Assembly (NCBI RefSeq): GCF_013044505.1
Contig: NZ_JABERD010000004.1
Span: forward strand, 1-64,000
Length of the DNA stretch: 64,000 nt
Reading direction: 5' to 3'
Origin: Streptomyces sp. S3(2020)
GTDB taxonomy: Bacteria > Actinomycetota > Actinomycetes > Streptomycetales > Streptomycetaceae
This document shows positions 16,887 through 48,323 of the stretch, piece after piece. The notes under the pieces were generated by a model, which was given only the letters and a program-made list of their open reading frames with translations, had not been told where the DNA came from and made no database searches. Each line of letters opens with the position of its first letter. Within the stretch, counting starts at the first letter, position 1. Made by a program: the position numbers and the translations under genes.

Positions 16887-17660
16887 TCAGCGCAGTGTCC
16901 ACTGCCCCCGGGGCACCGCGGAGCGGTCCACCTCGGCCTTCCCGATCGGATTGCCGATCTGGGTGTACGACAGCCCGGTGCGCAGCGCCTGGGTGCGCGT
17001 CGCGTCGAGCGACTCCCAGATCGCCCGCACGGTGCCCTGGATCGCGGCGGGCGGTTTCGCGGCGATGATCCGCGCGATCTCGTCGGCCCGCTCCCAGAGC
17101 CGATCACGCGGGAGCACCTCGCTGACCAGGCCGATCTGCAGGGCGCGGGCTGCGGAGACCCGCTCGTCGAGGCCGAGCAGGGCGATGCGCAGCGCCTCGC
17201 CGAGCGGGATGCGCCGGGCGAGCCCGATGGGCTCCAGGGCCGCGGTGAGTCCGTAGCTGACATGCGGATCGAAGAAGGTGGCGTCCTCCGAACAGATCAG
17301 GATGTCGGCCTCGTTGAGCCAGTAGAAGGCGCCGCCGGCGGCCATGCCGTGCACCGCGCACACCAGGGGCTTCCACACCTGGTTGAGCTTGGGCGAGAGG
17401 AACTCGCCGGGGTCGGTCCGCGACCAGACGTTGGGGTGGCGGTCGATGCCCTCCTTCACGTCCATCCCCGTGCAGAAGGCCCGGTCGCCCGCGCCGCGCA
17501 GCACGACGACCCGCACGTCGTCGTCGGTCTTGACGGTGTGCCAGAGGGCGCTGAACTCCTCCAGCATCCGCTGGTTGAAGCCGTTCATGGCCTCGGGGCG
17601 GTTGAGGGTGACCGTGGCGACATGGTCGGTCACCTCGAAGGTGACGGTCTCGAGTTCCAT
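16887..17660 (-). CDS. Crotonase-superfamily protein without the hydratase glutamates
   Basis: A 257-residue crotonase-fold protein with the CoA/oxyanion-hole stretches AFCTGMDVKE (about 61-70) and HGMAAGGAF (about 104-112). In true enoyl-CoA hydratases two glutamates 20 residues apart activate water (GGGxE and QPE). Here the matching positions are Y113 and H133 (DPHVSYG). It is therefore unlikely to be a normal hydratase; isomerase, hydrolase, decarboxylase or C-C ring hydrolase activity is possible, since crotonases such as EchA20 open steroid-derived rings. ATG 17660 follows GGAGC. It is divergent from the small protein/CoA ligase/kinase operon, with an exact AGTATACT between them. Confidence 0.8.
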   Translation of the reverse strand: MELETVTFEVTDHVATVTLNRPEAMNGFNQRMLEEFSALWHTVKTDDDVRVVVLRGAGDRAFCTGMDVKEGIDRHPNVWSRTDPGEFLSPKLNQVWKPLVCAVHGMAAGGAFYWLNEADILICSEDATFFDPHVSYGLTAALEPIGLARRIPLGEALRIALLGLDERVSAARALQIGLVSEVLPRDRLWERADEIARIIAAKPPAAIQGTVRAIWESLDATRTQALRTGLSYTQIGNPIGKAEVDRSAVPRGQWTLR

Positions 17661-17694
17661 CGGGAAGCTCCGTTCTCGACGCGATCAAGTTAAG

Positions 17695-17704
17695 TAGTAT
17701 ACTC
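17695..17704. promoter_or_regulatory. Shared palindrome, exact AGTATACT core
   Basis: TAGTATACTC in GTTAAGTAGTATACTCTTCT, between the divergent crotonase (17660) and small-protein (17762) genes. TATACT is readable as a -10 box on both strands. Confidence 0.65.
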
Positions 17705-17761
17705 TTCTCTGGTTACTCGGTACTCGGAATCGGTGCCATGAGAGCCGCGGAGGACACTGCG

Positions 17762-18067
17762 ATGAGGCCACGCGTGGGGCAGATGCTCAGCAGTACGGTC
17801 GACACGACGGCGGTGATCGTCGTGCGGTGCCCGGACGGCGACCTGGAGATCACGTGCGGCGGGGCGGCCATGGCCGAGGGCAACGTGCCCGGGCCCACCG
17901 GCACGCCCGACCCCGGCCTGATGGGCGGGGCGCTGCTCGGCAAGCGGTACGCCGACGAGGATCTCGGCGTCGAGCTCCTGTGCACGAAACCCGGGCCGGG
18001 CACGCTGGCGGCCAACGGCGTCCCCCTGCCCGTGAAGAGCGCCAAGCCGCTCCCCGCCTCGGACTGA
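17762..18067 (+). CDS. Small conserved-looking protein preceding CoA ligase
   Basis: A 101-residue acidic-to-neutral protein of unknown function, starting at ATG 17762 (GGAGG 8 bases upstream; an earlier ATG at 17738 has no site). It contains a hydrophobic strand TTAVIVVRC, then ITCGGAAM, and a C-terminal half with a LLGKRYADEDLGVELLCTK stretch, suggesting a compact beta-rich domain with three cysteines. I have seen proteins of this kind next to acyl-CoA ligases in actinobacteria but know no function. It is 14 bases upstream of the CoA ligase and surely co-transcribed, so an accessory role in the ligase or kinase step is a fair guess. Confidence 0.6.
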   Translation: MRPRVGQMLSSTVDTTAVIVVRCPDGDLEITCGGAAMAEGNVPGPTGTPDPGLMGGALLGKRYADEDLGVELLCTKPGPGTLAANGVPLPVKSAKPLPASD

Positions 18068-18081
18068 AGGACGGGCGGCCG

Positions 18082-19593
18082 GTGAACATATCGATGCTGT
18101 CGGACATGGCCGCCGAGGGATTCGGCGACCGGGTCGTCATCGGGCGTACGGACGACGGGCTGAGCGCTCGCCGACTGCGTGAACTGGCCGCGGGCGGGGC
18201 TCGCCTGGTCACTGACGCCGCCGCCGACGCCCTCGTGTACCTCGCGGTGAACGGCCCCGCGCTCCCGGTCGCGCTGTTCGCCGCGGCCCGCGCCGGAGTG
18301 CCGCTGATCCCGGTCAACTACCGCCTCGGTGACACGCAACTCGACGCGCTGCTCGCGAACCACCCCCGCGCCCTCGGCATCGCCGACACCGAACACGGCG
18401 AGGCCCTGCGCCGTGCCGGACTGCCGGTGCTCAGCCCCGCCGAATGGCTGGCGCGCGCGGCCGGGCACCCGACCGACGGCGACCCGGTGCCCTCCGACGC
18501 GCCCGCCGTCCTGATCTACACCAGCGGGACGACGTCAGCGCCCAAAGGCGTGGTCCTGCGCCACCAGAACCTGGTGTCGTACGTGCTCGGCACGGTGGAG
18601 TTCGCCGGAGCGGGCCCCGACGAGGCGGCCCTGGTGAGCGTGCCGCCCTACCACATCGCCGCCGTCTCCAACGTGCTGACGAACCTGTACGCGGGGCGCC
18701 GCTCACTGACACTGGAGCAGTTCACCCCGGAGGGCTGGCTCGGTCTCGTACGCGAGGAGCGCGTCACCCACGCGATGGTCGTGCCCACGATGCTGGCCCG
18801 CCTCATGGACACCGACGGCCCGGACCGCTCCGCACCCTCGCTGCGAGCGCTCGCCTACGGCGGGGCCCGCATGCCGGTGCGGGTCATCGAGACGGCCCTC
18901 GGCGCGTGGCCGCACGTCGACTTCGTCAACGCCTACGGACTCACCGAGACCTCGTCCACGATCACCGTCCTGGGGCCGGAGGAACACCGGACGGCCGTGG
19001 CGAGCGACGATCCCGTGGTGCGGGCCCGGCTGGGCTCGGCCGGACTGCCCCTGCCGGGTGTCGAACTGGAGGTCCGTGAGGTGTCCGGCGAGGTCCTCGC
19101 GGCCGGCGGGACCGGTCAGATCTGGGTGCGCGGGGAGCAGGTGTCGGGCGAGTACGCCGGACAGGGCTCCGTCGTCGACGAGCGGGGCTTCTTCCCCACC
19201 CGCGACCAGGGGCACCTCGACGCCGACGGCTATCTCCACATCGAGGGCCGGTCCGACGACACGATCATCCGCGGCGCCGAGAACATCGCGCCGGCCGAGA
19301 TCGAGGACGTCCTGCTCGGCCACCCGGACGTGCTCGACGCGGTCGTCGTGGGCGTCCCGGACGAGGAGTGGGGGCAGCGGATCGAGGCGGTGGTCGTGCT
19401 GCGCGACGGTGTGACGGCCGACGTGGACGCCCTGCGCGCACAGGTACGCGGCACGCTGCGCGGCTCGAAGACACCGGACCGCATCACCCACTGGCGGGAA
19501 CTGCCCCGGACCCCGACCGGGAAGCTCGTCCGCCGCGACATCGTCAAGGCACTGACCGTCGAACACGGCCGGGTCGCCGGCCGGCAGGGATGA
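18082..19593 (+). CDS. Acyl-CoA synthetase (FadD-type AMP-forming ligase)
   Basis: A 503-residue ANL-superfamily ligase that makes an acyl-AMP and then an acyl-CoA. The ATP loop is YTSGTTSAPKG (about residues 151-161), the A5 region AYGLTETSS (about 291-299), the hinge region is around GRSDDTIIRGAENIAP and the catalytic lysine is in PTGKLVRRD (about 480). GTG 18082 is the first good start after the small protein. It is followed by an APH-type kinase with a gap of four bases. It is probably the entry enzyme for a free acid handled by this kinase and by the ACAD11-like enzyme at 21471. Confidence 0.85.
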   Translation: MNISMLSDMAAEGFGDRVVIGRTDDGLSARRLRELAAGGARLVTDAAADALVYLAVNGPALPVALFAAARAGVPLIPVNYRLGDTQLDALLANHPRALGIADTEHGEALRRAGLPVLSPAEWLARAAGHPTDGDPVPSDAPAVLIYTSGTTSAPKGVVLRHQNLVSYVLGTVEFAGAGPDEAALVSVPPYHIAAVSNVLTNLYAGRRSLTLEQFTPEGWLGLVREERVTHAMVVPTMLARLMDTDGPDRSAPSLRALAYGGARMPVRVIETALGAWPHVDFVNAYGLTETSSTITVLGPEEHRTAVASDDPVVRARLGSAGLPLPGVELEVREVSGEVLAAGGTGQIWVRGEQVSGEYAGQGSVVDERGFFPTRDQGHLDADGYLHIEGRSDDTIIRGAENIAPAEIEDVLLGHPDVLDAVVVGVPDEEWGQRIEAVVVLRDGVTADVDALRAQVRGTLRGSKTPDRITHWRELPRTPTGKLVRRDIVKALTVEHGRVAGRQG

Positions 19594-19597
19594 GGGC

Positions 19598-20629
19598 ATG
19601 AGCGCCATCACGAACACCGCCGACCCGACCGCGGAGCTGACCGAGCGCACAGCCGCCGTGCTGCGGGGCTGGGCCCCCGATGCCACGGTGGAGTCGGTCG
19701 AGCCGCTCACCGGCGGCACGTCGAGCCTGACGTACGTGGCCACGCTGGCGGGTGTGCCGGCCGGGTCCGAGCGGATCGTCCTCAAGACGGCCCCGCCCGG
19801 CCTGGAACCGGTCCGCAACCGGGACGTCCTGCGGCAGGCGCGGATCATGCAGGTGCTGGCGGGCGTGCCGGGCGTACGGGTGCCGAGAGTGCTGTTCTGC
19901 GACAAGGGGGCCCCGACGGCCCGTCAGCCCTTCGTCGCGATGGAGCTGGTGGCCGGCGACTGCACGGAGCCGGTACTCGTACCCCGGGGGACCGTTCCCG
20001 CCGGGCAGGTGCGCGAGCGGGCCCTGGACGCGGTCCGGATGCTCGCCCGTCTGCACCGGGCGAACCCGAAACGCACTCCCCTGGCGGTGGAGCCCGTGGT
20101 CACGCCGGGCGCCGAGATCGACCGCTGGACGAGGGCGTTCACGACCGTCCCCGACGACCTGCGCACCGGTTACCGGGCCGTCGCGGACCGGCTGCACGCC
20201 ACGAAGCCCGCGGCGATGATGCCGGTGTTCACCCACGGCGACTACCGGCTCGGCAACACGCTGTGCGAAGGCGGCTCGGTCACCTCGATCATCGACTGGG
20301 AGATCTGGGCGCTCGGCGACCCTCGTTCCGATCTGACCTGGCTGACCTTCTTCACCGACGAGGCCCGGCACCCGGCGTCACCCTCCGACGAGCCGACCGG
20401 GATGCCGGGCAAGGCCGAACTGATCGACGCCTACCAGGAGATCAGGGGCGAGGCGCTGCCCGACCTGACCTGGTTCGAGGCACTGACCAAGTACAAGGAG
20501 TCCGCCGCGACCGCCCTGCTCATCAAACGCGCCCGGAAGTCGGGGGAGTTGAAGGACATGCACCGGCGCATGCTGCCCGCGCTGCCGGTGCTGCTGGAGG
20601 AGGCGACGGAACTCCTTGGAAAGGGCTGA
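19598..20629 (+). CDS. APH-fold kinase, ACAD10/11 N-domain-like (candidate 4-hydroxyacyl-CoA kinase)
   Basis: A 343-residue phosphotransferase of the aminoglycoside/choline kinase fold. The catalytic loop is HGDYRLGN (about residues 209-216), the Mg2+ motif IIDWE (about 228-232), and GDPRSDLTW follows. This run, with GIPS-like PTGMPGKAELIDAY and the later WFEALTKYK, matches the N-terminal kinase domain of mammalian ACAD10/ACAD11 and the Pseudomonas LvaA kinase, which phosphorylate the 4-hydroxyl of acyl-CoAs. It is therefore more likely a catabolic kinase than a drug-resistance enzyme. It lies four bases after a CoA ligase, and an ACAD11-type dehydrogenase lies 0.9 kb away. Confidence 0.78.
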   Translation: MSAITNTADPTAELTERTAAVLRGWAPDATVESVEPLTGGTSSLTYVATLAGVPAGSERIVLKTAPPGLEPVRNRDVLRQARIMQVLAGVPGVRVPRVLFCDKGAPTARQPFVAMELVAGDCTEPVLVPRGTVPAGQVRERALDAVRMLARLHRANPKRTPLAVEPVVTPGAEIDRWTRAFTTVPDDLRTGYRAVADRLHATKPAAMMPVFTHGDYRLGNTLCEGGSVTSIIDWEIWALGDPRSDLTWLTFFTDEARHPASPSDEPTGMPGKAELIDAYQEIRGEALPDLTWFEALTKYKESAATALLIKRARKSGELKDMHRRMLPALPVLLEEATELLGKG

Positions 20630-20636
20630 GGTCGAC

Positions 20637-20688
20637 GCGCCCCGAAGGGGCGCGGGGAACTGCGCGACCAGCCACGACGGCGCCGCAG
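20637..20688 (+). repeat. Streptomyces-type intergenic repeat, copy 1
   Basis: A hairpin GCGCCCC-GAA-GGGGCGC followed by GGGGAACTGCGCGACC and AGCCACGACGGCGCCGCAG. It fills the gap between two convergent genes and probably ends transcription. Other copies lie at 55661 and 59128. Confidence 0.85.
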
Positions 20689-20697
20689 ACGAAGCAC

Positions 20698-21474
20698 TCA
20701 GTACAGCCCGCCGTCCACCCTGATCAGCGACCCGGTCGTGTAACTGGACGCATCACTCGCCAGGTACAACGCCGTACTGATGATCTCCTCCGGCCGCCCC
20801 GGCCGACCCACCGCACTCCGCGTAGTCTGCCGCTTCTCCTCCGGCCAAGCCTTGGAAATGTCCGTCAGAAACGGCCCGGCCGAGATCGTGTTGACCCGCA
20901 CCGTCGGCCCATACTCCAGAGCGAACACCGTGGTCAGCGTATTGAGCGCAGCCTTCGCACCGGCATACGGCCCGAACCGCGGCTGCGGAAACAGCGCACC
21001 CGACGACGAGACGTTGATGATCGAGCCCCCGTCCCCCGAGGCCATCCGCTCCCCGATCAGCGAGGCAAGCCGGAAGGGGCCCTTGAAGTTGACCCCGATC
21101 ACCTTGTCGAAGAGCTCCTCGCCGGTCTGAGCAGACGAGGGCGCCACCGGCGACATCCCCGCGTTGTTGACGAGGACGTCGACCCTGCCGAACTCCTCAT
21201 AGGCGGTGTCGGCGAGCCGGCCGAGGTCGTCCCAGTGACCCACATGCGCGGCAACCGGGAGGGCACGCTGGCCCAGGCCGCGGACCTCGGCCGCCAGCGT
21301 CGCGCACGCCTCCAGCTTGCGGCTGGCGATGACCACGTCGGCACCCGCCGTGGCGAAGGCCCGCACCATCTCCCGGCCCAGGCCCCGGCTGCCACCGGTG
21401 ACCAGCGCGACCTTGCCGGAAAGGTCGAACAGGTCGGCCGGAGCGATGGATTTGTCGTCGCGCCCGTTTGTCAC
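20698..21474 (-). CDS. SDR family oxidoreductase coupled to ACAD11-like enzyme
   Basis: A 258-residue classical SDR: GGSRGLG at about residue 26, NNAG at about 106, SSSGA around 157, and the catalytic YAGAK at about 172-176, ending TGSLIRVDGG. GTG 21474 overlaps the stop of the upstream ACAD by four bases, so the two are translationally coupled. If the ACAD11-like enzyme turns a 4-phosphoacyl-CoA into a 3-hydroxyacyl-CoA, this SDR would be the natural 3-hydroxyacyl-CoA dehydrogenase; this is inference from the pairing. Confidence 0.78.
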   Translation of the reverse strand: MTNGRDDKSIAPADLFDLSGKVALVTGGSRGLGREMVRAFATAGADVVIASRKLEACATLAAEVRGLGQRALPVAAHVGHWDDLGRLADTAYEEFGRVDVLVNNAGMSPVAPSSAQTGEELFDKVIGVNFKGPFRLASLIGERMASGDGGSIINVSSSGALFPQPRFGPYAGAKAALNTLTTVFALEYGPTVRVNTISAGPFLTDISKAWPEEKRQTTRSAVGRPGRPEEIISTALYLASDASSYTTGSLIRVDGGLY

Positions 21475-22790
21475 GCGTCCACCCGCCCCGCCAGGCTGTC
21501 GTCCTCGATGATGTGCGCGTACCGCTTGCGGGCCGCCTCCAGCTTCGGCGGGAGGTGCTCGCTGGGGAACAACCCTTCCGCGGGCCGGTAGTTCCTCAGC
21601 AGCTGCTTGGCGATCGTGGTGCGGTGCACCTCGGTCGGCCCGTCCGCGAGGGCGAGGTTGGGCGCGGCCATCCACCACTTGGCGAGCGGGAGTTCACCGG
21701 TCGTGCCGAGCGAGCCGTGCAGATGGACCGCCCGCTGGATGATGTCGTGCAGCACCTTGGCCGTCTGGACCTTGCACATGGCGATCTGGGTACGGGCGGC
21801 GCCGTGCGGCTGTGTGTCGATGATCCAGGCCGTGTGGAGGACGAGCAGCCGGAACTGCTGCAACGCCACCCAGGAGTCGGCGATGAACTGCTGCACCGCC
21901 TGCTTGTCGGCCAGCAGGGTCCCCTGTGTACGGCGGGACAGCGCCCGCTCGCACATCATGTCGAAGGCGCGGGCGCACTTGCCCACCGTGCGCATGGCGT
22001 GGTGCACACGGCCGCCGCCGAGCCGGGCCTGGGCGACCTCGAAGCCCTCACCGGGACCGCCGAGCATGGCGTCGAGCGGCACCCGGACCTGGTGGTAGCG
22101 GAGGTAGGCGTGGATCCCCTCGTCGAGGTTCTCGCGCTCGTCCATCGTGCCGACGTTGCGCTTGATCTCGATGCCGGGTGTCTCGGCCGGGACGATGAAC
22201 ATCGACATGCGCCGATGCGGCGGCGCGTCGGGATCCGTGACGGCCATGACGATCAGGAAGGCCGCGTACCGGGCGTTGGAGGAGAACCACTTCTCCCCGT
22301 CGATCACCCACTCGTCGCCGTCCCGCCGGGCGCGGGTCACGAACTCCTTGGGATCGGCGCCCGCCTGCGGCTCGGTCATCGAGAAGGTGGAGACGATCTC
22401 CCCGTCCAACAGGGGCCGCAGGTACCGCGCCTTCTGCTCGTCCGTGCCGAACATGGCCAGGATCTCGGCGTTCCCGGTGTCGGGTGCGGCGGTGCCGAAC
22501 ACCGTCGGGGCCCAGTAGGAGCGGCCGAGGATCTCGTTGAGGAGGGCGAGCCGCACCTGCCCGTAGCCGGGGCCGTCCAGTTCGGGGCCGAGATGGCAGG
22601 CCCACAGGCCCTGCTCGCGGACCTGTTTCTGGAGCGGCCTCAGGATCGCGCGGGCCTTCTCGTTGCGGGTGTCGTACGGGTCGCCGCCGTGCGGGAAGAG
22701 GAGGTCGAGCGGCTCGACCTCCTCACGCACGAAGGCCGCCGCCCAGTCGAGCTTGGCCTGGAAGTCAGGGTCGATCGTGAAATCCAGCAT
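21471..22790 (-). CDS. ACAD10/11-like acyl-CoA dehydrogenase
   Basis: A 439-residue ACAD, longer than the usual 380. Several stretches are those of the ACAD10/ACAD11 dehydrogenase domain: APDTGNAEILAMFGTDEQ (about 104-121), STFSMTEPQAG, GGGRVHHAMRTVGKCARAF (about 254-272) with MCERA after it, and the base motif LADGPTEVH near 397-405, with the glutamate in place. ATG 22790 is chosen over upstream in-frame options because TATACT ends nine bases before it and no Shine-Dalgarno is seen, which implies a leaderless or near-leaderless mRNA. See the kinase at 19598 for the split ACAD11 proposal. Confidence 0.82.
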   Translation of the reverse strand: MLDFTIDPDFQAKLDWAAAFVREEVEPLDLLFPHGGDPYDTRNEKARAILRPLQKQVREQGLWACHLGPELDGPGYGQVRLALLNEILGRSYWAPTVFGTAAPDTGNAEILAMFGTDEQKARYLRPLLDGEIVSTFSMTEPQAGADPKEFVTRARRDGDEWVIDGEKWFSSNARYAAFLIVMAVTDPDAPPHRRMSMFIVPAETPGIEIKRNVGTMDERENLDEGIHAYLRYHQVRVPLDAMLGGPGEGFEVAQARLGGGRVHHAMRTVGKCARAFDMMCERALSRRTQGTLLADKQAVQQFIADSWVALQQFRLLVLHTAWIIDTQPHGAARTQIAMCKVQTAKVLHDIIQRAVHLHGSLGTTGELPLAKWWMAAPNLALADGPTEVHRTTIAKQLLRNYRPAEGLFPSEHLPPKLEAARKRYAHIIEDDSLAGRVDA

Positions 22791-22894: not shown

Positions 22895-24127
22895 ATGCAG
22901 AGGCCGATGGAGGGCGTGCGGGTGCTTGAGGTCGCCCAGTTCACCTTCGTCCCGGCGGCCGGTGCCGTGCTCGCCGACTGGGGTGCCGACGTGATCAAGA
23001 TCGAGCACGCCGAACGGGGCGACGCCCAGCGCGGGCTGGTCCGGGTGCTCGGGTACGAGGCCGCCAGCAAGGGATCGTCGTTCTTCCCGATCATGGAGGG
23101 CCCCAACCGCGGTAAGCGCAGTGTCGGCCTCGCCCTGGAGAAGCCCTCGGCCCGCCCCGTGCTGGAGGAACTCATCCGCGACAGCGATGTGTTCCTCACG
23201 AACTTCCTGACGGAGGCGCGCGCGAAGCTGCGGATCGAGCTGGAGGACGTCCGGGCGATCAACCCCGACATCATCTACGTCCGCGGCAGCGGCTTCGGTG
23301 TCCGGGGCGAGGAGGCGGGCAAAGGCGGGTACGACAGCACCGCCTTCTGGGCACGCGGTGGCAGCGCCGCCGGCGTCACCCCGGCCGGCGCGGACCGGAT
23401 GACCCGCATGCCGGCCGGCGCCTACGGCGACTCGATGGGCGGCATGACCATCGCGGGAGGAATCGCCGCCGCGCTCTACTCCCGCGCCACGACCGGTGAG
23501 CCGTCCGTCGTGGACGTGTCGCTGGTCGGGGTCGGCGCCTGGGCGACACAGTTCACGGTCAACCTGGCACTGATGACCGGCGGCCCGCTCCCGGTCAACA
23601 CCCCGCCCCGGCACGGCTCCGCCACCAACCCGCTGATCGGCGCCTACCGCACCTCGGACGAACGCTGGATCGAGCTGTCGATGCTGCAACCCGGCCGCTA
23701 CTGGGCGGAGTTCTGCAAGCTCGCCGGTCGGGACGAACTCGGCACCGACGAACGCTTCGACAGCACCGAGAAGCTGATGGCCAACGCCGCCGAGGCCGCC
23801 GGCATCGTCGCCGACCTCATCGCCTCCCGCCCCTACGCGGAGTGGGTCGAGATCCTCGCCCGGGGCGACGGTCAGTGGGCGGCCGTCCAGAACGCCTGGG
23901 AGGTCGGCCAGGACCCCGCCCTGCGCGCCAACGGTCTCATCGCCCCCGTCGTCGACGCCGACGGCGTCGACCGCGAACTGGTCGCCAATCCCGTCCAGTT
24001 CGACGAGACCCCGGCCGACCTCACCCGGGCGCCCCAGTTCGCGGAGCACACCGACGAGGTACTGCGCTCCCTCGGCCTGAGCGACGAGGAGCTCATCGCG
24101 CTCAAGATCGACGGCGCGGCGACCTGA
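22895..24127 (+). CDS. CaiB/BaiF-type (family III) CoA transferase
   Basis: A 410-residue family III CoA transferase moving CoA between carboxylates. The N-terminal GVRVLEVAQFTFVPAAGAVL and ADWGADVIKIEH, GKRSVGLAL at about 73-81 and the FGVRG region match the family. The likely catalytic aspartate is D179 in AYGDSMGG. ATG 22895 follows GAGGAG by 8 bases; upstream ATGs have none. This opens a ten-gene operon running to 34418. A related family member at 30518 is a racemase, so the two have different jobs here: this one probably loads or swaps CoA on the substrate. Confidence 0.82.
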   Translation: MQRPMEGVRVLEVAQFTFVPAAGAVLADWGADVIKIEHAERGDAQRGLVRVLGYEAASKGSSFFPIMEGPNRGKRSVGLALEKPSARPVLEELIRDSDVFLTNFLTEARAKLRIELEDVRAINPDIIYVRGSGFGVRGEEAGKGGYDSTAFWARGGSAAGVTPAGADRMTRMPAGAYGDSMGGMTIAGGIAAALYSRATTGEPSVVDVSLVGVGAWATQFTVNLALMTGGPLPVNTPPRHGSATNPLIGAYRTSDERWIELSMLQPGRYWAEFCKLAGRDELGTDERFDSTEKLMANAAEAAGIVADLIASRPYAEWVEILARGDGQWAAVQNAWEVGQDPALRANGLIAPVVDADGVDRELVANPVQFDETPADLTRAPQFAEHTDEVLRSLGLSDEELIALKIDGAAT

Positions 24128-26962: not shown

Positions 26963-28474
26963 GTGGGAATTCGCGACCGCCTGTCGCGGCTGCTCGCCGA
27001 AGCCGCCGCCGACGCCGAGGCGATCGAGCACGAGGGGGACTGGTGGACCTGGGGGCAGGTCCAGCGGACCGCCCGGCAGATCACCGAGGCGCTGGACGCG
27101 GCGGGCCTGAAGGCCGGCGCCCGCGTCGGCGTCGTCCTGGAGAACCGGCCGGAGCACGTGGCCGCGGTAGCCGCCGTGATCGCCTCCGGACGCTGCCTGG
27201 TGATGCTGAGCCCGCTGCAACCCGCGGCTCGGCTCGCGGCCGACATCGCCGCATGTGAGCTGCCCGTCGTCGTCTCCGGAGCCGAACCCCTGGCCCGCGA
27301 CGGTGTGGCGCGAGCGGCCACCGCGCACGGCGCGGCCCTGGAGCTGGGCGTCGACGGCACGCTGCGACCCGCGGGCGGCACGGCACCCGCAGCGGCCCCG
27401 GCCGACCCCGGCGTCGCTCTGGAGATGCTCACCTCCGGCACCACCGGCCCCCCCAAACGCGTCCACCTGAGCATCGGCCAGCTCGACCAGGCTCTCGTCT
27501 CCGGCGGCCAGAGCCCGAAGGCGGAGCGGCTGCTGTCACGGTCGGCGGCTCTCGTGGCCGCACCCCTCGTGCACATCGGCGGCCTGTGGCGGGCGCTCGC
27601 CTGTCTGGCCACCGGTCGCCGCATGCTCCTGATGCACAAGTTCGCCGTCGAACCGTGGGTGAGCGCCGTGGAACGGCATCGCCTGCGGGCGGCGAGCCTG
27701 GTGCCGGCGGCCATCCGCGCGGTGCTCGACGCGGGTGTGCCGAAGGAGCGGCTGGCGAGCCTCCAGGTCGTCACCTCCGGCACCGCGCCCTGCCCGGCCG
27801 AACTCGCCGACGCGTTCTTCCTGACGTACGGCATCCCGGTCCTGATGACGTACGGGGCCACGGAGTTCGCCGGAGCGGTCGTCGGCTGGACCCTGCCGTT
27901 GCACGAGCGCTGGTGGCGGCGCAAGGCCGGCAGCGCCGGGCGCGCCTTCGACGGCGTCGAGCTGCGGGTGACCGGCGAGGACGGCGCCGAACTGCCCGTC
28001 GGCAGGACCGGCCGGCTGGAGGTGCGCACCGAGCAGAGCACCCGGGGCGGCCGGGACTGGACACGCACCAGCGATCTCGCCCGCATCGACGCCGACCGGT
28101 TCGTCTGGATCGAGGGACGCGCGGACGACGCCATCATCCGCGGCGGCTTCAAGGTCCAGCCCGAAACGGTCAAGCGCGTCCTGGAGGCGCACCCGGACGT
28201 ACGGGAGGCGGCGGTCGCGGGACTGCCGGACACGAGGCTCGGCGAGGTGCCGGTCGCCGTGGTCGAGGCCGAACGGCGGCGGCCCGCCCCGGACCTCGCC
28301 GAACTGCTCGCCCTCTGCCGGGCCCGGCTCACCCCCTACGAGGTCCCGGCACACATCGTCGTCGTGGACGCACTGCCCCGGACCCCGTCGAGCAAGGTCA
28401 GCCGCGTGGAGCTGCTCGACCTCGTGCGCGCCCGGATCGCACAGCAGGACCGCGTGAAGGAGGACCAGCGATGA
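26963..28474 (+). CDS. Acyl-CoA synthetase (AMP-forming ligase)
   Basis: A 503-residue ANL-family ligase. P-loop motif LTSGTTGPPKR at about residue 155, A5 motif TYGATEFAG at about 295, WTRTSDLARID (A7) at about 362 and the C-terminal lysine loop PRTPSSKVSR at about 480. The A8 hinge is GRADDAIIRGGFKVQPE. It begins four bases after the ACAD and overlaps the MaoC gene at its end. It is the second of three CoA ligases in the window and the one tied to the ten-gene operon. Start GTG 26963 is preceded by a weak AGGGC. Confidence 0.83.
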   Translation: MGIRDRLSRLLAEAAADAEAIEHEGDWWTWGQVQRTARQITEALDAAGLKAGARVGVVLENRPEHVAAVAAVIASGRCLVMLSPLQPAARLAADIAACELPVVVSGAEPLARDGVARAATAHGAALELGVDGTLRPAGGTAPAAAPADPGVALEMLTSGTTGPPKRVHLSIGQLDQALVSGGQSPKAERLLSRSAALVAAPLVHIGGLWRALACLATGRRMLLMHKFAVEPWVSAVERHRLRAASLVPAAIRAVLDAGVPKERLASLQVVTSGTAPCPAELADAFFLTYGIPVLMTYGATEFAGAVVGWTLPLHERWWRRKAGSAGRAFDGVELRVTGEDGAELPVGRTGRLEVRTEQSTRGGRDWTRTSDLARIDADRFVWIEGRADDAIIRGGFKVQPETVKRVLEAHPDVREAAVAGLPDTRLGEVPVAVVEAERRRPAPDLAELLALCRARLTPYEVPAHIVVVDALPRTPSSKVSRVELLDLVRARIAQQDRVKEDQR

Positions 28475-29748
28475 CCAGGACACAGGAGAAGGGCGCCGGC
28501 ACGTTCGGCGTGCTGACCGACGAGGCCGTCGAGCGCTCCCGGCGCCGCCTCGGCATCCCCCAGCCCCAGCGCAACCCCCCGCACAACCACGAGGTGACCT
28601 GGGACGGCGTACGCCACTTCGCGTACGGCTACGGCGACGACAACCCCCTCTACTGCGACCCCGACCACGCGGCCGCCACCCGCTGGGGCTCGCTCGTCGC
28701 ACCGCCCACCTTCCTCTACACGATGGGCGAGGACGCCGCCCCGACACCGGACGCCGAGACCAAGGCGCTGCTCAGGGGCGACCCCTTCGCCGGACTCGGC
28801 TCGTACCAGGCGGTGATGGAGTTCGAGTGGTGGCGACCCCTGCGACTCGGCGACCGCTGCCGGGTGTTGCAGACCCAGGTGGGCGTCCACCTCAAACCCA
28901 GCAGCTTCGGCGGACGCACCGCCCACGTGGTCCGCGACTACCTCTACGCCAACGGGCGCGGTGAGATGCACGCCCTGCGCCGGGGCACCTGGATCAACGC
29001 CGAGCGGCACACCTCCCGGAAGCGGGCCAAGGAACAACTCGTCCAGGAACCCTACGAGCCCGGGCAGCTCGCCGAGATCGACGCGGCGTACGCGGCCGAG
29101 ACCAGACGCGGCGCCGAACCCCGCCACTGGGAGGACGTCGAGATCGGCGAGGAGCTCCAGCCCCGGGTCAAGGGACCGCTGACCACCACCGACGTGGTCG
29201 TCTGGCACCTCGGCTGGGGCATGCAGCTCACCCCGCCCGGGGCGTTCGGGATCGCCGCGAGGGTCCGGCGCAAGGCACCCGGCCTCTACCCGCCGAACCC
29301 GCTGAACGTCCCCGACACGGTGCAGCGCCTGCACTGGGAGCCCGAGCGGGCCCGGGAGTTGGGGCTCCCCAATCCCTACGACTACGGGGGCATGCGCGAG
29401 ACCTGGCTGTGCCATCTGCTGACCGACTGGATCGGCGACGACGGCTGGCTGTGGAAACTCCGCTGCGAACACCGCAGGTTCAACTACCTCGGCGACACCA
29501 CCTGGGTACGCGGCACGGTCGTCGACAAGCGACAGGTGGCCGGACGGGCCGAGGTGCACGTCGAGGTGCGCTGCGAGAACCAGCGGGGCGAGATCACCAC
29601 CCCCGGCACGGCCGTCGTCCTCCTGCCGACCCGCGACCGAGCCGTCGACCTGCCGGCCCCGCCGGCCGATGACCTGGACGGCATGGTCGCCCATGAACTC
29701 GCCCGGTTCGCCGTGACCGGCGATCAATCGCACGATTCGAGGAGGTAG
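28471..29748 (+). CDS. Double-hotdog MaoC/FAS1-like acyl-CoA (de)hydratase
   Basis: A 425-residue protein with two hotdog domains. The N-terminal one has FAYGYGDDNPLYCDPDHAA (about residues 50-68), the family hydratase motif GDxNP, but with Tyr where R-specific hydratases have the catalytic His. The C-terminal domain starts around residue 215 (HWEDVEIGEELQP) and includes TTTDVVVWHLGWG. This resembles the FAS1-like dehydratases and steroid hydratases such as ChsH1-ChsH2, where hotdog subunits hydrate an enoyl-CoA on a bulky substrate before the Ltp2 retro-aldol step. Its operon also ends in a DUF35-Ltp2-like protein, so the same chemistry is likely. ATG overlaps the ligase stop. Confidence 0.78.
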   Translation: MTRTQEKGAGTFGVLTDEAVERSRRRLGIPQPQRNPPHNHEVTWDGVRHFAYGYGDDNPLYCDPDHAAATRWGSLVAPPTFLYTMGEDAAPTPDAETKALLRGDPFAGLGSYQAVMEFEWWRPLRLGDRCRVLQTQVGVHLKPSSFGGRTAHVVRDYLYANGRGEMHALRRGTWINAERHTSRKRAKEQLVQEPYEPGQLAEIDAAYAAETRRGAEPRHWEDVEIGEELQPRVKGPLTTTDVVVWHLGWGMQLTPPGAFGIAARVRRKAPGLYPPNPLNVPDTVQRLHWEPERARELGLPNPYDYGGMRETWLCHLLTDWIGDDGWLWKLRCEHRRFNYLGDTTWVRGTVVDKRQVAGRAEVHVEVRCENQRGEITTPGTAVVLLPTRDRAVDLPAPPADDLDGMVAHELARFAVTGDQSHDSRR

Positions 29749-31632: not shown

Positions 31633-32778
31633 ATGCCAGACGCCGTCATCGTCGACGCCGTACGCACCCCGATCGGCAGGCGCAACGGCACCCTCGCCCC
31701 GGTGCACGCGGCGGATCTGTCGGCCGAGGTGCTCAAGGCGCTCGTCGCACGCACCGGCATCGACCCCGGCACGGTCGACGACGTGGTCTGGGGCTGTGTC
31801 ACCCAGATCGGCGACCAGTCCAGCAACGTCGGCCGGTTCGCGGTGCTCGCCGCCGGCTGGCCCGAACACGTCCCGGCGGTCACCGTCAACCGGGCCTGCG
31901 GCTCCAGCCAGCAGGCGGTCGACCAGGCCGCGCACGCCGTGCTGTCGGGACAGTACGACATCGTCGTCGCGGGCGGCGTCGAGACCATGAGCCGGGTACC
32001 GCTCGGCTCGCACCGGACCACGGGACAGCCCTACGGTCCCGCCGCCATCGCCCGCTACGGCGGATCCGGGTTCAGCCAGGGCATCGGAGCCGAACTCATC
32101 GCCGAACGCTGGGGTTTCACCCGCGCCCGCCTCGACGAGTTCGCCGCCGGGTCGCACGCGAAGGCCGCCGCGGCGATCGACGCGGGCGTCTTCGACGACC
32201 ACACCGTGCCGATCGAGGTGGACGGCACCAAGTTCACGGTGGACGAGGGGCTGCGGCGCGGAACGTCGGTCGAGACGCTGGCCGGCCTCAGGCCGTCCTT
32301 CAAGGAGGACGGTGTGATACACGCCGGGAACTCCTCGCAGATCTCCGACGGGGCGGCCGCGCTGCTCATCACCACCCCGCAGCGGGCCCGCGAACTGGGC
32401 CTCACTCCCATCGCCCGCTACCACTCGGGGGCGGTCAGCGGCGCGGACCCGATCACGATGCTCCTCGGACCGATCCCCGCGACCGAGAAGGTGCTGCGGC
32501 GCTCCGGGGTGTCCCTGGAGGACATCGGTGTGTACGAGGTCAACGAGGCCTTCGCCCCGGTCCCGTTGGCCTGGCTGGCCGAGACCGGCGCCGACCCGGA
32601 GCGGCTCAACCCGCTCGGTGGGGCCATCGGGGTCGGCCACCCGCTCGGCGGTTCCGGAGCCATCCTGATGACCCGGATGCTCGCCCGGATGCGGAACGAG
32701 AACCTGCGCTACGGCCTCCAGACCATGTGCGAGGGCGGCGGCACCGCCAACGCCACGATCATCGAGCTGCTGCGATGA
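31633..32778 (+). CDS. Thiolase (acetyl-CoA acetyltransferase type)
   Basis: A 381-residue degradative thiolase with the classical residues C89 (NRACGSS), H336 (GVGHPLGGSG) and C366 (TMCEGGG). NEAFAPVPLAW precedes the histidine. It starts eight bases after the racemase with GGAG upstream, and its stop overlaps the ATG of the DUF35-thiolase-fold fusion. It is closer to the housekeeping thiolase pattern than the enzyme at 6561. Likely role: release of acetyl- or propionyl-CoA from the side chain. Confidence 0.87.
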   Translation: MPDAVIVDAVRTPIGRRNGTLAPVHAADLSAEVLKALVARTGIDPGTVDDVVWGCVTQIGDQSSNVGRFAVLAAGWPEHVPAVTVNRACGSSQQAVDQAAHAVLSGQYDIVVAGGVETMSRVPLGSHRTTGQPYGPAAIARYGGSGFSQGIGAELIAERWGFTRARLDEFAAGSHAKAAAAIDAGVFDDHTVPIEVDGTKFTVDEGLRRGTSVETLAGLRPSFKEDGVIHAGNSSQISDGAAALLITTPQRARELGLTPIARYHSGAVSGADPITMLLGPIPATEKVLRRSGVSLEDIGVYEVNEAFAPVPLAWLAETGADPERLNPLGGAIGVGHPLGGSGAILMTRMLARMRNENLRYGLQTMCEGGGTANATIIELLR

Positions 32779-34418
32779 CCGGGATCGACCGGCCGCTGCC
32801 CCAACCCACCCTCGCCAGCGCCGAGTTCTGGGCCTCCGGGGCGGACGGCGTGCTGCGCGTCTCCCGCTGCGCGGACTGCGCACGCCACTTCCACCCGCCG
32901 CTTCCCGTGTGCCCCTCCTGCCGGGGCCGCGCGGTGGCACTCGCCCCCGTCTCGGGCCGGGCGGTGGTCGTCGGCTTCAGCGTCAACCACCAGATCTGGC
33001 ACCCGGAGTTCCCGCCACCGTACGTCGTCGCCGTGGTCGCCCTCGCCGAGGACGACCGGGCGCGGCTGACCACCAACATCGTGGGCTGCGATCCCGACGA
33101 GGTGCGCGTCGGCATGCGGGTCAAGGTGCGGTTCGAGCGGCTGGAGGACGACATCCACCTCCCGCTGTTCGAGCCCGACCCGGACACCGCCGAAGGGCCC
33201 CTGCCGGAACCGCGTGAGGTCCGGGCACGACCCATGGCCTCCCCGCGGAAGTACGAGGACAGGGTCGCGCTGACCGGCGTGGGACAGTCCCGCGTCGGCA
33301 GACGGCTCATGGTCGATCCGCTCTCCCTGACCGTCGACGCCTGTCTCGCCGCGGTCGAGGACGCCGGGCTCGATCTGGACGAGATCGACGGTCTCTCCAC
33401 CTACCCCGGTCCGCGCCCCGACGGCATGAGCGAGGGCGGCGTCACCGCTCTGACCGAGGCCCTGCAACTGCGGCCCACCTGGGTCAACGGGGCATCCGAG
33501 GTACCGGGTCAGATCGGCTCGATCACCGCCGGCATGCTCGCGGTCGCCGCCGGGCTGTGCCGTCACGTGCTGTGCTTCCGCACGGTCTGGGAGTCCTCCC
33601 ACAGCGCCCTGCTGCGCTCGGGCCGCCTGCAGCCGTCCGGCGGCCGGGCCACCGGCATGTTCGAGTTCCGCGCCCCCTTCGGCGCCCTGTCCGCCGCGCA
33701 GTGGATCGGCTGCAACGCCTCGCACTACCTGCACCGCTACGGCGTCGGCCGCGAGGCCCTCGGCGCGATCGCCGTCACCGCGCGGGCCGGCGCGGCACGC
33801 AATCCCGAGGCCCTGCACCGCGACCCGATGACCCTCGACGACTACTTCGACGCCCGAATGATCACCACCCCGTTCGGCCTCTACGACTGCGACGTCCCCT
33901 GCGACGGAGCGGTGGCCGTCGTCGTCTCCGCGATCGAGACGGCGTACGACCGTCCGCGCCCGCCCGTCCTGGTCGAGGCCGTCGGCACGGCGGTGGGGGA
34001 GCGGCTCAGCTGGGACCAGGACACCCTGACCCACACCCCCCAGTCGCTCGGCCCGTCCGCCCACCTGTGGACCCGCACCGGTCTCACCCCCGCCGACGTC
34101 GACGTCGCCCTGCTCTACGACGGGTTCACCTTCAACGCCCTGTCCTGGATCGAGGGCCTCGGCTTCTGCGGACCGGGGGAGGCGACCGACTTCATCGCCG
34201 GCGGCAAGACCATCGCCCTGGACGGCGACCTCCCGCTGAACCCGCACGGCGGCCAGCTCTCGGCGGGCCGCCTGCACGGCTACGGCTTCGTCCGCGAGGC
34301 CATGCTGCAACTGCGCGGGGAGGCGCACGGGCGCCAGGTGAGCGACGCCCGGGTGGCTGTGGCCACCGCGGGCGGGGGAGTGCCGTCGGGGGCGATGCTG
34401 CTGCGGAAGCCGGCGTAG
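32775..34418 (+). CDS. DUF35 (OB-fold/zinc ribbon) fused to Ltp2-like thiolase-fold aldolase
   Basis: A 547-residue fusion. Residues 28-135 form a DUF35 unit: zinc-ribbon cysteines C32, C35, C46 and C49, then an OB-fold. After a Pro/Glu-rich linker (about 136-158) a thiolase-fold lipid-transfer-protein domain runs to the end, with LLYDGFTFNAL and NPHGGQLSAGRLHGYG. The usual thiolase nucleophile region reads SEVPGQIGS without cysteine. In steroid catabolism Ltp2 needs the DUF35 domain of ChsH2 to perform a retro-aldol cleavage that removes the last side-chain carbons as propionyl-CoA. Here both parts are one chain, which supports an aldolase assignment. It is the last gene of the operon. Confidence 0.8.
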   Translation: MTGIDRPLPQPTLASAEFWASGADGVLRVSRCADCARHFHPPLPVCPSCRGRAVALAPVSGRAVVVGFSVNHQIWHPEFPPPYVVAVVALAEDDRARLTTNIVGCDPDEVRVGMRVKVRFERLEDDIHLPLFEPDPDTAEGPLPEPREVRARPMASPRKYEDRVALTGVGQSRVGRRLMVDPLSLTVDACLAAVEDAGLDLDEIDGLSTYPGPRPDGMSEGGVTALTEALQLRPTWVNGASEVPGQIGSITAGMLAVAAGLCRHVLCFRTVWESSHSALLRSGRLQPSGGRATGMFEFRAPFGALSAAQWIGCNASHYLHRYGVGREALGAIAVTARAGAARNPEALHRDPMTLDDYFDARMITTPFGLYDCDVPCDGAVAVVVSAIETAYDRPRPPVLVEAVGTAVGERLSWDQDTLTHTPQSLGPSAHLWTRTGLTPADVDVALLYDGFTFNALSWIEGLGFCGPGEATDFIAGGKTIALDGDLPLNPHGGQLSAGRLHGYGFVREAMLQLRGEAHGRQVSDARVAVATAGGGVPSGAMLLRKPA

Positions 34419-47282: not shown

Positions 47283-48155
47283 TCAGCCGGCCGGCTGCGG
47301 CGGCGGCGAGAAGTGGTGGCCCCAGAACGCGCCGTCCGTGATCTCGTAGACGGGCACGGGCTCCGGCACCTTCAGACCGTTCCAGCCGAACTCGACGGCG
47401 TAGTTCTCCGGCGACCACACATAGAACGACACCATGCGGTCGTTGGTGTGCTTGCCGAGCGAGTGCATCATCGGGATGTCCTGCTTGGCGGCCCGGTCGA
47501 GGGCCAGCCCGACGTCGTCCAGGGTCGCCCCCTCCACCATGAAGTGCAGCAGCCGCCCCGGACCCGGCATCGGCGTCACACCGAGCGTGTGGTGCCGCGC
47601 GTTGCATCCCATGAACCAGGTCGTGCCGCCCGGCGACTTCATCGTGTTGCGCTCGATGAAGCCCAGCACATTGACATAGAAGTCGAACGTGGCCCGGGCG
47701 TCCTCGGCGGAGATGATGGCGTGCCCGAAGCCCATGTCGCCGGTGACGAACCGCGAGACCAGCGGGGTGCGCACCGGTACATGGTCCAGGACGGCCCCGT
47801 AGAACAGCTCGACCGGGTTGCCGCCGGGGTCGTTGAACTTGGCGAAGCCCGTGACCTTCCGCTCCGCGGCCTCGGCCTCGGTGCCGGCCGTCACCTTGAT
47901 CCCGGCCTTCTCGACATCCGCGACCAGCAGTGCCAGCTGCCGCTCGTCGAGAACCTCGAAGCCCAGTGCCGTCATCCCGGGCTGGGCCCCCGGGGAGACC
48001 ACGATGCGGGCCGGGTAGTCGTCCATCCGGAAGGACAGCGACTCAAAGTCGCCGTCCCCGACCGGCATCAGGCCGAGGAAGTCGGCTCCGAAGGCCTTCC
48101 ACTTGTCGAGGTCGTTGGACTCCAGACGCAGGTACCCGAGTGAGCGAACACCCAT
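47283..48155 (-). CDS. Type I extradiol (meta-cleavage) dioxygenase, HsaC/BphC-like
   Basis: A 290-residue two-domain VOC dioxygenase. The Fe(II) ligands are H145 (GHAIIS), H204 (RLLHFMVE) and E255 (YAVEFGW); catalytic H189 (RHHTLG), H236 and Y245 are also present. The N-terminal non-catalytic VOC half is complete, so the size is that of HsaC and BphC. HsaC cleaves the catechol ring of 3,4-DHSA, the product of the HsaAB-like system at 1270. ATG has GGGAGGACC upstream. It is a single gene, divergent from the C-C hydrolase. Confidence 0.87.
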   Translation of the reverse strand: MGVRSLGYLRLESNDLDKWKAFGADFLGLMPVGDGDFESLSFRMDDYPARIVVSPGAQPGMTALGFEVLDERQLALLVADVEKAGIKVTAGTEAEAAERKVTGFAKFNDPGGNPVELFYGAVLDHVPVRTPLVSRFVTGDMGFGHAIISAEDARATFDFYVNVLGFIERNTMKSPGGTTWFMGCNARHHTLGVTPMPGPGRLLHFMVEGATLDDVGLALDRAAKQDIPMMHSLGKHTNDRMVSFYVWSPENYAVEFGWNGLKVPEPVPVYEITDGAFWGHHFSPPPQPAG

Positions 48156-48323
48156 CAGGTCCTCCCCTCACATCACATTCGGTCAGGTCCGGGGCGGCCC
48201 GTCGGGGCCCCGGTATCGGTACGTCCGTGACGGTAGACAGCCCGGCCCGCCCGCCGCCGGTGCCGTCCCACTGATCGGGAGACGCACGGCGACCGCCCTC
48301 CCGTGGGTGCCACGGTGAGTGTC

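Follow-up and report, generated by a model that had tools for sequence, protein, structure and literature searches.

Organization of the locus

The 64,000-nucleotide stretch of DNA from the soil bacterium Streptomyces sp. S3(2020) that we analyzed, hereafter the window, carries closely spaced genes for a kinase and an acyl-CoA dehydrogenase (ACAD), and the question raised by this locus is whether the two proteins work together as a split form of the mammalian ACAD10/ACAD11 fusion proteins, which phosphorylate and then remove a hydroxyl that would otherwise halt the degradation of fatty acids. The initial annotation had read them in this way, and its interpretation as a whole is partly supported by our results. 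The four genes on which it relied were all present, as judged by open reading frames and Pfam matches. An AMP-dependent acyl-CoA ligase with a putative LvaE-like role (18094..19593, plus strand, start at about 18082 or 18094; PF00501 and PF13193) directly precedes, as had been claimed, an APH-fold kinase (19598..20629, plus strand; PF01636), a putative 4-hydroxyacyl-CoA kinase, with a gap of only 4 bp. On the minus strand, an SDR that is a putative LvaD-like 4-oxoacyl-CoA reductase (20698..21474; PF13561/PF00106) overlaps, as had been noted, with the ACAD (21471..22790), by 4 bp; the latter is a putative 4-phosphoacyl-CoA phosphate-eliminating enzyme. Because the kinase and the ACAD lie on opposite, convergent strands, each with its neighbor, the window holds two transcription units and not one operon.

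Out of 20 loci retrieved through the kinase, 17 also carried orthologs of the ACAD and the SDR in convergent orientation with the kinase, with identities of 87–96% for the ACAD and 71–89% for the kinase, and this conservation indicates that the genes are real and not chance reading frames. The intervening gap exceeded 1.3 kb in 7 of these 17 loci (L053–L055, L057, L058, L060 and L061). In the remaining loci of the 20 (L056, L064 and L065), the ACAD was not found within the locus. An enoyl-CoA hydratase/isomerase family protein (16887..17660, minus strand; PF00378), which could catalyze a following step, had an ortholog at the same locus in 15 of the 20, and a CaiB/BaiF family CoA-transferase (22907..24127, plus strand; PF02515) lies divergent from the ACAD.

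Upstream of the ligase, an open reading frame beginning with ATG (17762..18067, plus strand) encodes a small conserved protein of 94–101 amino acids with no assigned family and no Pfam or NCBIfam matches. It was 67–94% identical across 16 rows and, wherever a locus had both genes (16 loci), lay within about 110 bp 5' of the ligase. In L125 and L126 it accompanies the ligase and not the kinase. Its predicted structure (pLDDT 50) supports no fold claim.

The dehydrogenase belongs to the ACAD10/11–LvaC branch

The ACAD had been likened to the C-terminal domain of ACAD10/11, and this held. The motifs APDTGN, GRVHHAMRTVG and LADGPTEVH cited for it were found in the translation, and it scored 260 bits against ACAD11 versus 148 bits against SCAD. 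In a tree of 55 ACADs and 16 other rows, built without duplicate loci and without many of the close orthologs, it fell with mouse ACAD11 and PDB 4HR3 in a 64-row clade (SH-aLRT 100) apart from other ACADs. Within that clade, 49 rows including the window ACAD formed a subfamily (SH-aLRT 100), named HAMR after its motif, that is sister to the canonical HCMR sub-branch. On sequence grounds we firmly assign the window ACAD to the ACAD10/11–LvaC branch, in which LvaC is placed by the available text of PMC11342911 and PMC12440821.

Alignment with ACAD11 showed that the phosphate-binding and catalytic residues are kept. R256 (22023..22025, minus strand) corresponds to R626, which binds phosphate in ACAD11 according to the available text of PMC12440821, and would by homology form part of the phosphate clamp. 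H264-A265-M266-R267 (21990..22001, minus strand) corresponds to H634-C635-M636-R637, with HAMR replacing HCMR, and D383 (21642..21644, minus strand) to the catalytic D753, where ordinary ACADs have Glu. Among 78 distinct family rows picked by similarity to the window ACAD (80 less two repeats of the same gene), equivalents of R626, R637 and D753 were present in all 78 and that of H634 in 75, with Tyr in the other 3. The Asp and the first Arg were found in none of 9 other ACADs. At the C635 position the window ACAD has Ala265, and it lies outside the canonical ACAD11/4HR3 sub-branch.

The best PDB match of the window ACAD was 4HR3 (275 bits), a putative ACAD from Mycobacterium abscessus. Like the window protein it reads HAMR, with Ala at the C635 position, but it differs in having GPGR/DGPDE as in the canonical branch, inside which it falls.

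The kinase and the dehydrogenase are linked across genomes

This genome has four ACAD11-like genes, and all four have a kinase match no more than 0.9 kb away, compared with a kinase match within 3 kb for 3 of its 41 other ACAD matches (Fisher p 0.0002); two of those 3 flank a pair already counted. When loci were selected through the ACAD, a kinase was found in the 1.5-kb flanks of 17 out of 29 and was absent from the flanks of 12, versus 2 out of 26 for other ACAD loci of this genome. An earlier tally of hand-picked ACADs among the matches listed, in which a kinase lay no more than 3 kb away in 45 of 93 cases (38 in tandem, 7 convergent and none divergent), is incomplete, carries no evidential weight and is superseded by the 29-locus count. 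No fused kinase–ACAD reading frame was seen among 55 ACAD and 58 kinase reading frames.

From the side of the kinase, all 20 genomes retrieved with it (kinase identity 69–89% in 19 and 51% in the other) carry the ACAD at 80–96% identity. Among the best 12 class-wide kinase relatives listed, an ACAD11-like gene lay within 1.5 kb in 8 and at 10–11 kb in 2, and the other two (G017 and G056) had no ACAD within the 20 kb examined. In Rhodococcus rhodochrous, kinase (56%), ACAD (75%) and SDR make up one operon, and two Nocardia genomes have the same kinase–ACAD–SDR operon (58% and 75%, and 57% and 76%, for kinase and ACAD, respectively). Given this shared operon and the co-occurrence in 20 of 20 genomes, the kinase and the ACAD of the window belong together. 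The proposal of a split ACAD10/11 module stands on operon linkage in relatives and on co-occurrence, and the two convergent units of the window itself speak against it.

In Massilia and Sphingomonas, ACAD relatives (67% and 71%) have directly upstream a kinase of the ACAD11-type branch, which is an exchange of the kinase partner at one position. That exchange beside close ACAD relatives, together with the kinase–ACAD–SDR operon, points to one intermediate shared by the two enzymes.

Proposed pathway and the role of the SDR

From the identity, residues, conservation and linkage of the genes, all of which are observed, we infer the chemistry, which takes in the kinase's CoA-ester substrate, the direction in which the SDR works and the substrate of the pathway. 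The reading that we favor, and consider probable, is a split Lva-type module that uses ATP to take a gamma-hydroxyl off a CoA ester. The ligase would convert an acid to its CoA ester, the SDR would reduce a 4-oxo to a 4-hydroxy group where needed, and the kinase would phosphorylate the gamma-hydroxyl at the expense of ATP. The ACAD would then hold the phosphate through R256, H264 and R267 and, with D383 as the base and transient use of FAD, eliminate it to give a 2-enoyl-CoA, which a hydratase (the enzyme encoded at 16887 or a MaoC protein at 28471) could pass on to beta-oxidation.

The initial annotation had the SDR working at the other end of the sequence, oxidizing a resulting 3-hydroxyacyl-CoA instead of making the 4-hydroxyl. 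SDR dehydrogenases that oxidize 3-hydroxyacyl-CoA are common. The initial annotation had assumed conversion to a 3-hydroxyacyl-CoA; in the available text of PMC11342911, ACAD10 yields chiefly 2-enoyl-CoA and less 3-hydroxyacyl-CoA, so that the published enzymes do give some of the latter. Against it, the kinase–ACAD–SDR order of the relatives is that of lvaA–C–D, LvaD reduces levulinyl-CoA (available text of PMC6692424), and the SDR gene accompanies that of the ACAD, on the same strand and within 400 bp, in all but one of the 18 members of the window ACAD group. Since gene content and order mirror lvaA-C-D(-E) and the reaction of LvaD is known, by analogy an LvaD-like 4-oxoacyl-CoA reductase is more likely than a 3-hydroxyacyl-CoA dehydrogenase; for this one step, oxidation is a possible but lesser reading.

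The favored reading takes the Pseudomonas putida lva operon (LvaA, LvaB, LvaC, LvaD and LvaE) as its closest model. Both that operon and the window bring together a ligase, an SDR, a kinase and an ACAD, although the lva order is matched only by the tandem genes of the window's relatives and not by the two convergent units of the window. No LvaB-like gene was identified. The window genes also differ in lying among ring-cleavage genes and in having a kinase outside the ACAD11-type branch.

Affiliation of the kinase

The catalytic residues of the kinase, D215, N220 and D233-W234-E235, match Asp220, Asn225 and the DWE motif of the ACAD11 kinase, and the two belong to one superfamily. In contrast, Q80 stands at the alphaC position, where the ACAD11 kinase has Glu, and A172 at the position of the CoA-contacting R176. 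Added to HAMR for HCMR in the ACAD and to separate instead of fused proteins, these replacements set the window apart from ACAD10/ACAD11, with which its ACAD has in common the branch, the R626/H634/R637 clamp residues and the catalytic Asp.

In a tree of 54 rows the window kinase clade was separate (support 99/99), and 3DXP grouped with the ACAD11 kinase. The clade counted 25 rows, that is 24 and one stray, OUT_L036, a 182-residue outgroup piece that is surely misplaced. The kinase trees likewise exclude repeated loci and numerous close orthologs. An AU test on 46 rows, with mouse ACAD11 and 3DXP standing in for LvaA, rejected nesting of the window kinase in the ACAD11/3DXP-type branch (p-AU 0.0001). 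Two arrangements fit, one with 25-hydroxysteroid kinase (25-HSK) and Rv3168 (p-AU 0.355) and one as sister to the ACAD11-type kinases (p-AU 0.339); the groups were named after the kinase tree had been viewed, and the outgroup rows are long branches. The initial annotation's likening of this protein to the ACAD10/11 kinase domain was therefore not upheld, and a plain ACAD11-type kinase is ruled out by the AU test, the separate clade, and Q80 and A172. As the kinase lies outside the ACAD11 branch and has neither Arg176 nor the alphaC Glu, its use of a CoA ester is not assured.

It could instead phosphorylate a free, non-CoA alcohol on a polycyclic ring or side chain, as 25-HSK does, and the ACAD would then act at another step or after later CoA activation. 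The Sterolibacterium 25-HSK (PDB 9FSG), which activates the hydroxyl of a free tertiary alcohol for elimination in steroid catabolism, is about 21% identical to the window kinase and shares with it the APH fold and the alphaC Gln. With phmmer the window kinase scored 44 bits against 3ATS and 42 bits against 9FSG versus 36 bits against ACAD11. In structural comparison 25-HSK was among the best matches, tied with 3DXP (Z 27.3 and 27.7); mouse ACAD11 (8v3u/8v3v) was not among the best 50 matches listed, which is no argument against a likeness. By sequence and fold, the kinase is thus as near to 25-HSK and Rv3168 as to 3DXP. However, the 25-HSK and Rv3168 rows have Arg in the R176 column, and a CoA-activating gene often stands upstream of the kinase: the ligase described here, no more than 100 bp away, in 14 of the 20 loci, and a CaiB-family CoA-transferase in L061 and L136. 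With the shared intermediate to which the operon and the kinase exchange point, we regard a free-alcohol substrate as unlikely.

Another kinase might serve the ACAD, either the second kinase (44–46%) that adjoins it in four genomes (L057, L058, L061 and G158, which is Streptomyces MMG1533) or a paralog encoded at another site of this genome; the window kinase would in that case act only on the product of the ligase. In those four genomes the window-type kinase may indeed act otherwise, and the nearest paralogs of the window ACAD (C1, 62%) and of the window kinase (C4:120441, 39%) in this genome are not the same pair. But no second kinase was found near the ACAD in the 12 Streptomyces loci of convergent layout, and in the Rhodococcus and both Nocardia genomes the gene that stands in tandem with the ACAD is itself a relative of the window kinase, so this explanation is quite improbable.

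A kinase that modifies aminoglycosides or macrolides and lies here by chance shares the Pfam family but is very improbable, and an aminoglycoside-modifying kinase is ruled out, by 36.5 bits with the APH(3') NCBIfam model (cut-off 205), 20 bits for macrolide kinase, 16 bits for hygromycin kinase, Z of 21.9 or less for aminoglycoside kinases versus at least 27 for the best matches, and the conserved position beside CoA genes. The initial annotation had named a kinase among aminoglycoside enzymes and an ACAD outside the ACAD10/11 branch as the outcome that would count against it; scores, structural Z and tree place neither protein there.

With the split Lva-type module still the favored reading, we tentatively suggest, as a less likely reading, that the window kinase may belong to a third lineage of small-molecule kinases, one that acts on the hydroxyacyl-CoA esters of bulky, polycyclic or terpenoid, compounds and lacks the ACAD11-type CoA arginine, and that HAMR ACADs may be its dedicated phosphate lyases, the pair performing an ATP-dependent dehydration when polycyclic compounds are degraded aerobically. 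The gene for the phosphate lyase of 25-HSK was not known in 2021 (available text of PMC8449060), and the lyase was still called "putative" in 2024 (available text of PMC11061730). If the suggestion is true, HAMR ACADs would be the kind of lyase partner that 25-HSK lacked in that literature.

Surrounding genes and distribution

The surrounding cluster seems to degrade a ring-shaped, polycyclic compound. It encodes a MaoC/FAS1_DH-type hydratase (28471..29748, plus strand; PF13452), a ChsH2-type zinc-ribbon/OB domain fused to a thiolase-like domain (32775..34418, plus strand; PF12172, PF01796 and PF22691), a 3-ketosteroid Delta1-dehydrogenase-like protein (49838..51436, minus strand; 444 bits against PDB 4c3x), and an HsaC-like extradiol dioxygenase (minus strand) with an HsaD-like hydrolase (plus strand) at 47283..49184. 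The NCBIfam scores were all below the curated cut-offs (372 bits versus 450 for HsaA, 274 versus 450 for HsaC and 267 versus 400 for HsaD). Genome-wide, no protein exceeded the HsaC cut-off and none matched PF19298 (KshA) at E 0.01. KstD- and Hsa-like ring-cleavage genes without KshA indicate that this is not the standard steroid pathway, and with the low Hsa scores a canonical 9,10-seco steroid cluster is not supported. The module probably acts on a gamma-hydroxy or gamma-keto acid, or on one formed from a lactone, that arises from the cluster's polycyclic compound; sapogenins and cardenolides were dropped as guesses for lack of evidence.

Phosphorylation followed by elimination is already known for levulinate, mammalian 4-hydroxy fatty acids and, for the kinase only, anaerobic sterol side chains. 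Among the titles and abstracts listed in searches of open-licence papers, none reported such a module in ring or steroid catabolism, which is weak evidence of absence. What appears novel here, judging from sequence, is the combination of a split layout, a kinase of a distinct branch and an ACAD of the HAMR subfamily, set among ring-cleavage genes. If the favored reading is true, the split module, with its distinct lineage of kinases and distinct subfamily of ACADs, would extend the chemistry to gamma-oxygenated polycyclic acids, and its proteins would offer a defined means of testing how such kinases read the CoA ester. ACAD11-like modules as such are not rare: beside the four ACAD11-like genes of this genome, 94 of the 148 genomes in a sample of the class carried at least one such gene (E 1e-60 or better).

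A conserved kinase–dehydrogenase module

All five genes of the module were found where the initial annotation had placed them, judging from the window sequence and family matches. A small conserved open reading frame (17762–18067), a CoA ligase ending at 19593 and an APH-family kinase (19598–20629) lie on the forward strand; an SDR (20698–21474) and an acyl-CoA dehydrogenase (ACAD; 21471–22790) lie on the reverse strand, so that the ligase–kinase and SDR–ACAD pairs are convergent. The source genome comprises 11 Mb, with the window on its contig C4, and the nearest named relatives of the locus are Streptomyces.

The association of kinase and ACAD is a real, conserved one. Within the source genome, all 4 ACAD11-like genes have a kinase match no more than 0.9 kb away, compared to 3 of 41 other ACAD matches with a kinase within 3 kb, 2 of which flank an ACAD11-like pair. 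When loci were picked on ACAD similarity alone, a kinase lay within the 1.5-kb flanks in 17 of 29 and none did in the other 12; among control loci around other ACADs of the source genome the count was 2 of 26, both flanking an ACAD11-like pair. Searching with the kinase yielded 20 loci (13 Streptomyces, 4 Nocardia, 2 Pseudonocardia and 1 other actinobacterium), with kinase identities of 69–89% in 19 and 51% in locus L064. Every one of these 20 genomes encodes an ACAD of 80–96% identity, convergent with the kinase in the same locus in 17. The ACAD is approximately 18 kb from the kinase in L064, approximately 29 kb off and adjoining another kinase in L056, and on a different contig in L065.

The 18 rows of the window's own ACAD group had a kinase within 1 kb in 14 and at 10 kb in 1, with none in the stretch covered for 3; the SDR was on the same strand within 400 bp of the ACAD in 17, the 18th ending at a record end. 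The best 12 class-wide kinase relatives had an ACAD11-like gene within 1.5 kb in 8 and at 10–11 kb in 2, and none in the 20-kb stretch covered in 2. Close relatives other than the orthologs form tandem kinase–ACAD–SDR operons on a Rhodococcus rhodochrous plasmid (identities of 56%, 75% and 79%) and in two Nocardia genomes. An ACAD (77%) and kinase (55%) are separated by 10 kb in genome G072, and in Rhodococcus sp. BH4 a single plasmid carries an ACAD–SDR unit with a 55% kinase approximately 50 kb from it. In Massilia putida and Sphingomonas paeninsulae, which have ACADs of 67% and 71% identity, the gene directly upstream of the ACAD encodes a kinase of the ACAD11-type branch. This pairing of close ACADs with kinases of two lineages argues for a single shared intermediate.

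Counting against the module reading are the 12 of 29 ACAD-selected loci whose flanks lack a kinase, and a second kinase (44–46%) that adjoins the ACAD in L057, L058, L061 and genome G158, where the window-type kinase lies elsewhere. This second kinase is directly upstream of the ACAD (L057, 5815-6714; L058, 15638-16537; L061, 18448-19350; and L151 of G158) in two Nocardia, one Pseudonocardia and Streptomyces sp. MMG1533, and was not seen in the 12 Streptomyces loci arranged convergently. Partner loss, or kinases for different stereoisomers, would be possible explanations.

The small conserved protein (17762-18067) has three cysteines and no match in Pfam or NCBIfam. Among the loci found with the kinase, its gene lies close upstream of the ligase in the 16 that contain both. 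It precedes the ligase even when the latter is far from the kinase (L125 and L126), and is present without a window-type ligase in L064.

Family placement of the dehydrogenase and kinase

The window ACAD scored 275 bits against 4HR3 (M. abscessus), 260 against ACAD11 and 148 against short-chain ACAD. In a 71-row tree, 64 ACAD11-like rows formed a single clade (SH-aLRT 100) with seven other ACADs outside; within it, the window subfamily (49 rows) and the branch holding mouse ACAD11 and 4HR3 (12 rows) each had an SH-aLRT of 100. Mutagenesis of ACAD11 is reported to mark R626, H634 and R637 as important (PMC12440821). The window ACAD retains all three equivalents and the catalytic Asp. Across 78 distinct family rows, R626, R637 and Asp were invariant and His was present in 75, with Tyr in 3, including paralog C4:121421; other ACADs had Asp, the first Arg and His in 0 of 9 each and Arg in the R637 column in 2 of 9. 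The Cys635 column held Ala in 61, Cys in 16 and Ser in 1 of 78. The proline of FAPDVF, by residue count human P463 (a position published in PMC11342911), is Pro in the window ACAD and in 73 of 78 rows. The clade, the retained clamp residues and the Asp uphold the ACAD10/11 affiliation proposed initially: the enzyme belongs to a sister subfamily within the ACAD10/11–LvaC branch.

The proposed likeness of the kinase to that of ACAD11 held in part. In sequence searches it scored 44 bits with 3ATS (Rv3168), 42 with 9FSG (titled 25-hydroxysteroid kinase), 38 with 3DXP and 36 with ACAD11, versus 20 and 16 with macrolide and hygromycin kinases. VIA-align comparison of the predicted model (mean pLDDT 88.8) gave Z 27.7 with 3DXP (rmsd 3.5, 312 aligned), 27.3 with 9FSG (3.5, 324), 27.1 with 9FT5 (3.8, 326) and 27.1 with 3ATS (3.6, 322), dropping to 22.1 or less thereafter among the matches listed. 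Catalytic Asp, Asn and DWE are retained, as is the helix C Arg (R79; the ACAD11 residue is printed as R86 in PMC12440821 and is R84 by chain count). Compared with ACAD11, the Glu beside that Arg is Gln, and Arg176, which contacts CoA in the modelling described in PMC12440821, is Ala. The window kinase fell in a 25-row clade (support 99/99; one row a stray outgroup), and a tree constraining it to the ACAD11/3DXP branch was rejected (p-AU 0.0001); neither of two deeper branch orders was rejected (p-AU 0.339 and 0.355). The kinase is thus not a member of the ACAD11-type family and may nonetheless work like one; given the lost Arg176 and Glu, we only infer its use of a CoA ester.

Two further loci of the source genome also carry kinases. 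L040 (G000:C1:115000-134999) holds paralogs of several window genes (thiolase 70%, ACAD 70%, ACAD11-like 62%) and a kinase of the ACAD11-type branch. L042 (G000:C97) has a kinase at approximately 14862-15647 that groups with 25-hydroxysteroid kinase and Rv3168; the ACAD lying 1.5 kb from it (17160-18017) is not ACAD11-like.

Proposed chemistry

In Pseudomonas putida, LvaE is described as forming levulinyl-CoA, which the SDR LvaD reduces to 4-hydroxyvaleryl-CoA; LvaA with LvaB phosphorylates this, and LvaC then eliminates the phosphate (PMC6692424, PMC9399607). ACAD10/11 reportedly require redox-active FAD but not an electron acceptor, and it has been suggested that their reaction passes through a 2,4-dienoyl intermediate (PMC12440821, PMC11342911). 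Since the window holds candidates for the LvaE, LvaD, LvaA and LvaC roles, we propose the same sequence of steps: the ligase would form the CoA ester, the SDR would reduce it to a 4-hydroxyacyl-CoA, the kinase would phosphorylate this and the ACAD would eliminate the phosphate. The LvaD-like role is proposed in place of the 3-hydroxyacyl-CoA oxidation first assigned to the SDR. In 14 of 20 loci the ligase lies no more than 100 bp ahead of the kinase, and a CaiB-family CoA-transferase takes that position in L061 and L136; a CoA-activating gene there fits a CoA ester as the kinase substrate.

Surrounding cluster

The rest of the window encodes HsaA-, HsaC-, HsaD-, KstD- and HsaE/G/F-like proteins, a MaoC protein, a ChsH2-OB/thiolase fusion and two CaiB-family CoA-transferases, one adjoining the module and another further along. 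The HsaA, HsaC and HsaD matches all fell under curated scores, no HsaC in the source genome exceeded its curated score, and KshA was not found there, so these genes appear to form a ring-cleavage cluster related to, yet distinct from, the standard steroid cluster. An earlier survey reported steroid pathways missing from 55 of 57 Streptomyces genomes (PMC4810484). The fusion (32775-34418) joins ChsH2-type zinc-ribbon and OB domains to a thiolase-like domain, which suggests a one-chain retro-aldolase. A 491-aa regulator (38188-39663) has two GntR and two FCD stretches, a tandem double regulator. As far as approximately 42 kb, most window genes have orthologs on a linear Streptomyces plasmid, beside mycofactocin genes; L124, from the linear plasmid of Streptomyces sp. 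NBC_00080, carries much of the cluster, and genes for mycofactocin synthesis and an IS630 transposase lie close to it.
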